From Kitasatospora terrestris (GTDB lineage: Bacteria; Actinomycetota; Actinomycetes; Streptomycetales; Streptomycetaceae), in contig NZ_BAABIS010000001.1 in assembly GCF_039542905.1 (NCBI RefSeq), forward strand, positions 682,001-746,000: a stretch of DNA of 64,000 bases, in the 5' to 3' direction. The position numbers and the translations under genes are program-made. Below the pieces are notes generated by a model. The model was given only the letters and a program-made list of their open reading frames with translations. It was not told where the DNA came from and ran no database searches. Below, piece after piece: positions 23,482 to 25,206 of the stretch. The stretch's first letter is position 1. Each line of letters opens with the position of its first letter.

Positions 23482-23937
23482 TCAGCCGCGACTCGGCGCC
23501 CCCGCGGTCTCCGACACGGTGGCGGCCTCGATCCCGGCGAGGATCTCCGCGCGGCGCTGCGGCCCGGAGGCGCGGCGGACGATCCGGCCGTCGCGGTCGA
23601 GCACCAGGACGGTCGGCGAGCGCAGGAGCCCCAGGCGGGCGACCAGGTCGGGCCGCGCCTCGGCGTCGACCTCCACGTGGGTGACGCCCGCCGTCGTCGC
23701 CGCGAGGCCGCCGAGGAGCCGGCGCGCCGCGTCGCAGGAGGAGCAGTAGGTGGTGGAGAACTGCACCAGCGTCGCCCGTTCGCCGACCCGCTGCCCCAGC
23801 TCGGCCGAGGTCAGGCGCAGCCCCGCGTCGGCGCTCCGCACCCGCAGCCGGCCGTCGCGCGCCGTGCGGACCGCGCCGAAGACGGCCGCCGCGACGAGGA
23901 CGGCCGCGCAGATCACCAGCCCGGTCGGGTCAACCAC
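23482..23937 (-). CDS. membrane-tethered thioredoxin-like protein
   Basis: 151 residues: one N-terminal helix (GLVICAAVLVAAAVFGAVRT) and a thioredoxin fold with the redox site YCSSC in LVQFSTTYCSSCDAARRLLG and cis-Pro region LLRSPTVLVLDRDG. It probably reduces or relays disulfides or sulfane sulfur at the membrane. It overlaps the DUF4395 gene by 8 nt; this pair, often with a rhodanese, is linked to thiosulfate/cysteine metabolism in actinobacteria (family context). No rhodanese gene is here. Confidence 0.87.
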   Translation of the reverse strand: MVDPTGLVICAAVLVAAAVFGAVRTARDGRLRVRSADAGLRLTSAELGQRVGERATLVQFSTTYCSSCDAARRLLGGLAATTAGVTHVEVDAEARPDLVARLGLLRSPTVLVLDRDGRIVRRASGPQRRAEILAGIEAATVSETAGAPSRG

Positions 23938-24388
23938 GGGCCGGCTCCGCCCCGCGCAGCCGGGTCGCGAGCAGGTAGACCTCGCAGCCCAGGCAGTAGC
24001 CGAACGCCGCGTTGAGGAAGGCCGCGGCGAGCGCGGCGCCGGTGGCGGCGAGGCCGAGCCAGGCCGGTCCGACCAGGTAGCCGACCGTGCCGAGCAGGCC
24101 GAACGCGAGGCCGACGGCCTGCGCGAAGCGCGGCGGGCGCTCGTCCTCCAGCTCGGCGGGCGGGCCGAGGCGCGGCCGGACGAGGGTGCGGAAGAGCACG
24201 CCGTACGGGGAGCGGCGCAGGCCGAGGAGGGCGCCGGTCGCGAAGACGGCGGTCTGGGCGGCGAGCAGCCAGCCGCTGCCGGTGACCAGGGTCGCGGCCA
24301 GGACGACGGTGGTGAGGGTGGCGGCGAAGCGCGGTCCGCGGGGGTCGATCAGGGCAGCGGAAGGGGCGCCGACGGGGGCGTGGGACAT
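23930..24388 (-). CDS. DUF4395 integral membrane protein
   Basis: 152 residues with four membrane segments: RFAATLTTVVLAATLVTGSG, WLLAAQTAVFATGALLGLRR, AVGLAFGLLGTVGYLVGPAW and LAATGAALAAAFLNAAFGYC. The end FGYCLGCEVYLLATRL is the DUF4395 signature with a CxxC facing the membrane; these cysteines may handle persulfide sulfur (inference from its thioredoxin and rhodanese partners elsewhere). The ATG at 24388 gives MSHAPVG. It follows the leader peptide by 41 nt. Confidence 0.88.
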   Translation of the reverse strand: MSHAPVGAPSAALIDPRGPRFAATLTTVVLAATLVTGSGWLLAAQTAVFATGALLGLRRSPYGVLFRTLVRPRLGPPAELEDERPPRFAQAVGLAFGLLGTVGYLVGPAWLGLAATGAALAAAFLNAAFGYCLGCEVYLLATRLRGAEPARG

Positions 24389-24429
24389 GGGGGCTCCGGG
24401 GAGAAGGGCAGGACGGGGTCGCGGCGTGG

Positions 24430-24510
24430 TCAGGGACGACGACACGCCGCGGACCACACCCGACCGAAGTCGATGTGGGCCCTCGTCACCAGCAGCAGCC
24501 CGGAGCGCAT
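24430..24510 (-). CDS. leaderless leader peptide (26 aa) of the DUF4395-thioredoxin operon
   Basis: The peptide contains TRAHIDFGRVWSAAC followed by RRP, matching the short streptomycete leader peptides (LLLTRRRHIDLxRVASAxC) that precede sulfur-assimilation genes. Its ATG is 6 nt after a TGCAAT -10 box, so the mRNA has no 5' leader. Family knowledge: related actinobacterial short ORFs sense cysteine supply through their Cys codons. Here there is a single Cys codon followed by two CGT Arg codons. The stop is 41 nt before the DUF4395 ATG, room for an attenuator fold. Confidence 0.8.
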   Translation of the reverse strand: MRSGLLLVTRAHIDFGRVWSAACRRP

Positions 24511-24516
24511 CCGGCC

Positions 24517-24545
24517 ATTGCAGCAGGGCCGCCGCCCGCCGTCAA
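24517..24545 (-). promoter_or_regulatory. promoter of the leader peptide-DUF4395-thioredoxin operon
   Basis: Minus strand TTGACG (24540-24545), 17-nt spacer, TGCAAT (24517-24522). This is a near-ideal housekeeping sigma-factor promoter and places the transcript start at or next to the leader peptide ATG at 24510. Confidence 0.75.
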
Positions 24546-24605
24546 CGACGTCCCGCCTGCCGGCACGCCGGTCTCCGCCTCGCCGGCGACCGCCCCCGCC
24601 GTGGC

Positions 24606-25004
24606 TCAGCCATCCAGCGCGGCCAACGCGTCCAGCGCGGCGCGCAGGCGGGCGGCGGCCTCGTCGGCGACGGCCGCCAGCTCGGGGTTCCCGGCGACCC
24701 GGACGATCAGCTGCGGGTCCATCGCCTCGACCACCGTGCGGCCGTCGGCGGCCCGGACCACCACGTTGCAGGGCAGCAGCAGCCCGATGCTGCGGTCGGC
24801 CCCGAGCGCGCGGTGGGCGAGCGGCGGGTTGCAGGCGCCGAGGATCAGGTACTCCTCGATCTCCTCGCCGAGCTTGGCCCGCAGGGTGGCCTGCATGTCG
24901 ATCTCGGTGAGGATCCCGAACCCCTGGTCGGCGAGCGCGGCCCTGGTCCGCTCGACGGCGTCGGCGAAGGGCAGGTCGAGGGTGACGGGGATGCCGTACT
25001 CCAT
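24606..25004 (-). CDS. DUF302 domain-containing protein
   Basis: 132 residues, soluble. The DUF302 fold is recognised by YGIPVTLDLPFADAVERTRA, the LTEIDMQATLRAKLGEEIEE strand-helix, and ILGACNPPLAHRALGADRSI followed by LLPCNVVV. The family is common near redox and sulfur genes, and its CxP and PCN cysteines are conserved; function is not established. The ATG is followed by EYGIPV as in relatives. It reads toward the leader peptide operon but has its own upstream region. Confidence 0.9.
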   Translation of the reverse strand: MEYGIPVTLDLPFADAVERTRAALADQGFGILTEIDMQATLRAKLGEEIEEYLILGACNPPLAHRALGADRSIGLLLPCNVVVRAADGRTVVEAMDPQLIVRVAGNPELAAVADEAAARLRAALDALAALDG

Positions 25005-25206
25005 GCCGGGCTCCGTTCGGGGGCGTTCCGTTGCACATACCCGTGGGGGTGTTTCCCACGGTACGGCAGCGCGTGGCGGCACCGGCGCATCCGGGCGGCG
25101 CGGCGCGCCCGGCGAGCCTGTGCGGCCGTCCTCCGCGAGGATGGGAGCACTGCCGGCGCCGCCGCGCGACGCGCGGCGGGCCCGCTGCGGCTGTCGGAGG
25201 TGCGTG

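Follow-up and report, generated by a model that had tools for sequence, protein, structure and literature searches.

Organisation of the locus

The analysed window, a stretch of 64,000 nt from Kitasatospora terrestris, carries on its minus strand a short reading frame followed by a two-gene unit. The frame (positions 24430..24510) consists of 26 codons and a TGA stop codon, encodes MRSGLLLVTRAHIDFGRVWSAACRRP, and is probably translated from a leaderless mRNA. A gap of 41 nt separates its stop codon from the start of a DUF4395 gene (23930..24388, minus strand; PF14340, E 4.4e-47), the end of which is overlapped by a thioredoxin-like gene (23482..23937, minus strand; PF00085, E 1.9e-7). The original prediction, which gave no strand for the element, had correctly described this unit, as well as the single Cys codon of the leader and the two CGT Arg codons after it. 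The Cys codon is TGT, and CGT CGT CCC TGA comes next. This Cys codon (UGU in the mRNA; codon 23, 24442..24444, minus strand) is the proposed sensor codon.

Upstream of the leader, on the same minus strand, a -35-like TTGACG (24540..24545) is followed after 17 nt by a -10-like TGCAAT (24517..24522), and six further nucleotides, GGCCGG, lead to the ATG at position 24510, exactly as claimed earlier. The window of 64 kb contains a single instance of TTGACG-N17-NGCAAT, a pattern absent from all of 100 shuffled versions. A search against Rfam 15 gave no matches over the gathering score in the window, and no terminator-like sites were found at positions 23900-25100. Directly upstream of the leader region lies a DUF302 gene (24606-25004, minus strand; PF03625, E 2.2e-28), itself preceded by ATACCCGTGGGGGTGT (25037-25052), which resembles a CsoR-type operator.

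Conservation and gene neighbourhood of the leader

The leader of the window contains a core of the form [H/V/A]-x-D-x-x-R-x-x-S-x-x-C, like actinobacterial cysteine leaders in general. For the narrower core of its own subtype (subtype A), a pattern written with degenerate codons found matches in 119 genomes when 394 were sampled from the family, and the same pattern read backwards gave no matches in any row listed. Among 100 distinct copies of the subtype-A core, taken from the matches listed, 20 stand before DUF4395 genes and 62 before genes of luciferase-type monooxygenases, called by PF00296 on partial sequences and presumably SsuD-like; the other 18 comprise six located before a similar-looking gene lacking a Pfam match on the piece tested and 12 unassigned copies. 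For the pairing comparison described below, no start was found at four of the 62 monooxygenase loci, and 58 were used. The gene after the leader is of a thiol or sulfur type, being DUF4395 with a thioredoxin-like partner in the window and a luciferase-type monooxygenase at the sister copies.

Starting from the gene rather than the leader, a sample of 200 genomes from the family gave a DUF4395 match in 124, and 30 loci were taken from these; a scan of named genome contigs added the best 80 of 305 relatives, resulting in 110 loci or, after removal of 13 duplicates, 97 distinct ones. Subtype A precedes the gene at 17 of these 97 loci, which bears out the conservation of the peptide in orthologous positions; 33 carry other leaders (type B), mostly like RRVVDLCRATASRCR, and 47 have no recognised leader. 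The order leader, DUF4395, thioredoxin on one strand is found at all 17 subtype-A loci, where the thioredoxin frames all end past DUF4395 and eight of them, taken from stop to stop, begin early. At type-B loci, the thioredoxin gene is divergent in 26 of 33 cases and in the other seven is an upstream neighbour of the same orientation, and it is divergent at the 47 loci without a recognised leader. The remark that this unit lacks the usual rhodanese has some basis, since one more distant locus (L088:724-3188) carries thioredoxin, leader, DUF4395, rhodanese and DUF1416 genes consecutively.

In the wider phylum, matches were obtained in 15 of 198 genomes, one of which lies outside the class, and this locus (L344) has no Cys residue at position +11 of the motif.

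Promoter-like elements

All 100 distinct subtype-A copies carry TTGAC[GC] 35-37 nt upstream of an in-frame ATG or GTG start codon; the rule used to choose the start required TTGA 31-37 nt upstream, and none of the 100 loci failed it. The hexamer located 17 nt past TTGAC[GC] ends 6-8 nt before the start codon, and in 87 of the 100 copies its fourth and fifth bases are AA. Such spacing fits a leaderless start of the mRNA at the leader ATG, as we infer from the sequence. The description of the promoter as near-consensus holds for the -35 element but not for the -10 element, since TGCAAT has no A at position 2. A consensus promoter scan of positions 23900-25100, performed with a scanner that demands this A, reported no promoter, and in S. 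lividans leaderless genes A is present at -10 position 2 in 94.5% (PMC8079986). Among the type-B leaders, TAnnnT is present at -12 to -7 in 14 of 33. An operator-like TTGAC/GTCAA dyad is visible by eye in some copies.

Codon choice at the conserved Cys

All 100 subtype-A copies use TGT for this Cys, which is codon 22-24 in every one of them, although the N-termini differ. The 33 type-B leaders all end their series of Cys codons with TGT, while each of their 36 internal Cys codons is TGC.

The same count was extended to the class using the top-scoring loci for each of three leader models of NCBIfam, a phylum draw and 60 further matches, picked by hand from those listed so as to represent different genomes. 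This set contained 176 loci (120 and 56), of which 147 were distinct after two unassigned loci (L316 and L354) and 4 and 23 duplicates had been removed; two more (L236 and L344) have no Cys at +11, leaving 145 leaders. Of these, 143 have TGT and two have TGC as the codon 11 residues past the [H/V/A]-x-D position, the score used to pick frames having favoured Cys at this position while being blind to its codon. The remaining Cys codons of the same leaders are 60 TGT and 183 TGC. Among the distinct 15-residue cores, 92 of 96 have only TGT. For comparison, the DUF4395 genes contain 5 TGT versus 90 TGC, and the long flanking frames, possibly including antisense ones, 70 TGT versus 408 TGC. Since the base 3' of TGT is also skewed (92 C and 20 T among 117 cases in the set of 119 loci), the nucleotide context after the codon may matter too.

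What hardly varies is thus the presence of UGU at one set position, and not the number of Cys codons. The single Cys codon, which the original prediction had regarded as setting this copy apart, is shared with roughly 24 of the 147 class-wide leaders, as judged from the printed peptides, and is no novelty. Nor are the two CGT Arg codons after it conserved: in most of the 100 subtype-A copies read, the Cys is followed by a lone Arg, by another Cys or by some different residue.

The preference for UGU over UGC at one position points to a sensor of decoding speed.

Hairpin in the coding sequence

In subtype A, the codons CAC ATC GAC TTC GGT CGN GTG TGG are predicted to form a hairpin with a cUUCGg loop, which in the window includes the HIDFGRVW codons and their neighbours (24451..24482, minus strand). 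All 100 copies have GTG and 99 have GGT, and the hairpin is part of the consensus fold computed for DUF4395 leaders as well as of that for monooxygenase leaders. Its mean energy over the 100 copies is -16.0 kcal/mol versus -9.9 kcal/mol for synonymous random versions, with 82 copies at P <= 0.05. A reading of HIDFGRVW as peptide conservation alone is therefore weakened, because the codons form a more stable hairpin than other codons for the same residues. This excess of stability is less marked in the class as a whole, at 25 of 119 (mean z -0.6), and in type B, at 3 of 30. A second predicted hairpin lies around the Cys and stop codons. The leader region of 134 nt as a whole folds better than 198 of 200 shuffles.

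Complementarity between the leader 5' end and the DUF4395 Shine-Dalgarno

Codons 2-4 of the window leader include GCTCCGGG (24499..24506, minus strand), the exact complement of the Shine-Dalgarno region of the DUF4395 gene; GCUCCGGG, in the same codons, complements without mismatch CCCGGAGC (24393..24400, minus strand), which contains the Shine-Dalgarno GGAG (24397-24394), and the predicted fold pairs the two. A helix of at least 5 pairs over GGAG is available to 19 of 20 subtype-A leaders located before DUF4395 (shuffles: mean 9.4, largest 15) and to 20 of 32 type-B leaders (shuffles: mean 5.2, largest 10), one type-B locus (L094) being without a Shine-Dalgarno by the rule used. For subtype A as well as type B, binding of the Shine-Dalgarno region by leader nucleotides 1-24 is better than in each of 200 shuffled sets. 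Leaders also pair more strongly with their own gene than with a permuted partner (fractions 0.011 and 0.013). Permutation and Fisher values take no account of common descent. No excess was seen for the 58 monooxygenase leaders, which have the same core and a median spacer of 289 nt; there the matched pairs, at -8.2, are worse than the shuffled ones, at -9.0.

The importance of the very 5' position is clearer in type B, because in GC-rich subtype A many windows pair over GGAG (84 of 190 other 24-nt windows give at least 5 pairs, compared with 77 of 420 in type B), and leader nucleotides 37-60 bind almost as well as nucleotides 1-24 (-12.9 vs -13.6). Pairing is weak at L018, L022, L057 and L155. 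RNAalifold applied to the 20-sequence DUF4395 alignment did not choose the 5'-end helix and paired a CUGG stretch with the Shine-Dalgarno side; among its 20 pairs, none changed on both sides, and for the monooxygenase leaders (30 of 62 sequences) 3 of 26 pairs did so.

Accessibility of the Shine-Dalgarno was predicted for leaders masked by ribosomes in different positions. For subtype A (20 loci), it was 0.05 for the free RNA, 0.05 with one ribosome stalled at UGU (0.053 and 0.049 before rounding), 0.19 with the 5' end covered and 0.20 with a queue; for type B (30 of 33 loci), the corresponding values were 0.11, 0.14 (0.109 and 0.141), 0.22 and 0.22. By these predictions, a lone ribosome halted at UGU would leave the site closed, and covering the 5' end would partly open it. 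The leader seems to hide the DUF4395 ribosome-binding site with its own first codons.

Proposed mechanism and alternatives

We propose that the element is an attenuator of the cysteine leader-peptide type, acting on translation of the DUF4395-thioredoxin mRNA, in which the 5' end of the leader serves as the sequestering strand; we hold this reading with a confidence somewhat above even. The mRNA would start at or beside the leader ATG. As long as the first codons are free of ribosomes, they would pair with the complementary stretch downstream and the DUF4395 Shine-Dalgarno would be hidden. When charged tRNA-Cys is short, ribosomes translating the leader would pause at the single fixed UGU, and later ribosomes would queue back to the start, cover the 5' end and leave the Shine-Dalgarno free; when cysteine is ample, the leader would clear fast and the 5' end would re-pair. 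With UGU at codon 22-24, the leader has room for about three ribosomes, 23 codons being about three ribosome widths. The sequence itself provides the leader with its conservation, the invariable placing of UGU, the complementary stretches, the hairpin and the lack of a terminator-like site; a leaderless start, stalling, queueing and cysteine as the signal are inferred. We counted in its favour the 100 distinct loci, the promoter-like pair at near-fixed spacing and the kinship to known leaders, and against it the predicted accessibility, which rises to about 0.2 at most, the atypical -10 element and the 47 of 97 DUF4395 loci without a recognised leader.

A rather unlikely but still credible alternative is ordinary attenuation of the mycobacterial type, where a single ribosome stalled at the Cys codon blocks a sequestering structure and the 5'-end pairing is secondary. 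The core is common to the mycobacterial leaders, for which a cysteine attenuation model is published (cited in PMC9094748, PMC13236596 and PMC9031893), and, with an assumed footprint, a ribosome at UGU would lie over the 3' arm of the cUUCGg hairpin and would also reach into the second hairpin; however, masking by one ribosome had no effect on access to the Shine-Dalgarno in subtype A and little effect in type B. The constant spacing of 11 residues would also suit nascent-peptide arrest, in which the conserved peptide, always equally far from UGU, would hold the ribosome alone or together with a sulfur signal, codon supply not being the main trigger. Class-wide, D (GAC 81, GAT 38) and R (six codons) are kept through different synonymous codons, both D and R/K being part of the search rule. 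Peptide arrest gives no account of UGU over UGC, though, and in subtype A the RNA hairpin explains the same residues too, making this explanation improbable in our opinion.

Control could instead lie in the promoter, the TTGAC...CAA pair being a site for an activator or an alternative sigma factor and the leader mainly bringing ribosomes. The invariance of TTGAC[GC] and the frequent AA in the later hexamer, unlike a usual -10, speak for this, but it leaves unexplained the UGU, its fixed position, the hairpin and a complementarity that the DUF4395 leaders have and the monooxygenase leaders do not, and we give it little credence. Least of all do we expect that transcription is attenuated, whether by an intrinsic terminator or by Rho, between the leader and the nearby DUF4395 gene. 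Rho-dependence has been proposed for cys leaders without terminators (PMC1262725), and a GGGCCG...CGGCCC inverted repeat follows the stop codon of many monooxygenase leaders, but a terminator-like site was not found here and the gap is just 41 nt.

If the output is a queue that reaches back to the start of the leader, as in the mechanism that we favour, one Cys codon would be enough and poly-Cys runs would not be essential. A broader and decidedly speculative generalisation is that cysteine leaders of the class Actinomycetes gauge sulfur status through one near-obligatory UGU at a fixed place, which its reading through a G-U wobble by a single tRNA-Cys would make the slow, supply-sensitive step, possibly also sensing a sulfur-containing modification of that tRNA; extra Cys codons would provide tuning, and the DUF4395 branch would read the signal by queueing onto an anti-Shine-Dalgarno in the first codons. 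Among the literature matches listed from our narrow searches, neither the UGU rule nor a 5'-end anti-Shine-Dalgarno was reported. DUF4395 is seldom named in the literature searched, and the link of DUF4395-thioredoxin and SsuD-like genes to one type of control offers a lead on it.

Comparison with known leaders

The window leader matches the NCBIfam model NF042936, "Ms4527A family Cys-rich leader peptide", with E 6.2e-6 and 25.7 bits, below the curated cut-off of 45, which agrees with the originally suggested relationship to actinobacterial cysteine leaders; it has one Cys codon and not the several near the end that are typical of NF042936. The model NF042934 (cis_reg_atten, "putative leader peptide"; cut-off 27 bits) did not match the window peptide up to E 10, unlike six other leaders of the same genome, which scored 21.6-39.6 bits, four of them at least 27. 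The mycobacterial leaders Ms4527A and Ms5788A are likewise short, have a core of R-x-H-V/I-D-x-x-R type, precede sulfur genes, and combine a spacing that fits a leaderless start with no terminator found. Unlike them, the window leader has one Cys codon versus a run, a coding cUUCGg hairpin, a proposed 5'-end sequestering strand and a DUF4395-thioredoxin target. Canestrari and co-workers reportedly described, in 2020, the polycysteine leaderless sORFs of mycobacteria as cysteine-responsive attenuators.

In earlier studies, mycobacterial Cys leaders appear as translated leaderless sORFs (Shell et al. 2015, PMC4633059) and as Cys leaders without conserved terminator hairpins before cys operons (Seliverstov et al. 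2005, PMC1262725). The uORFC-8-2 motif located before cysS in Rhodobacterales resembles the window leader in having Cys codons in an upstream ORF and a cysteine-related gene, but its two tandem Cys codons are mostly UGC and it has an apparent intrinsic terminator (PMC8632094). In the LEU element of leuA, as in the window, a leader-coding stretch pairs with the downstream Shine-Dalgarno; there, however, the regulatory codon run itself pairs, whereas here the first codons do (PMC1262725).

Other leaders in the same genome

Further leaders of the K. terrestris genome precede reading frames of nitrite/sulfite reductase, ThiS-type, sulfatase and FMN-reductase proteins. A second subtype-A leader (L003, C1:7325851-7325907) is located before a luciferase-type monooxygenase gene. 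Another leader, MLTSRRHIDLQRVCSSMAEA (L002, C1:7330366), has the motif without Cys at +11, and its sole Cys codon is TGC. A cysteine-type leader at C1:2004195 (L005) stands before a gene for a protein with a PF14226 non-haem dioxygenase N-terminal domain, which is not obviously a sulfur gene. Two of the 12 matches in this genome (L009 and L013) lie inside long frames and look like chance occurrences. Finally, GGGCCGnCTGACCGGCCC or a variant of it forms the inverted repeat after the leader stop codon at L130 and at many of the other 61 monooxygenase loci, where it may belong to a transcription attenuator.
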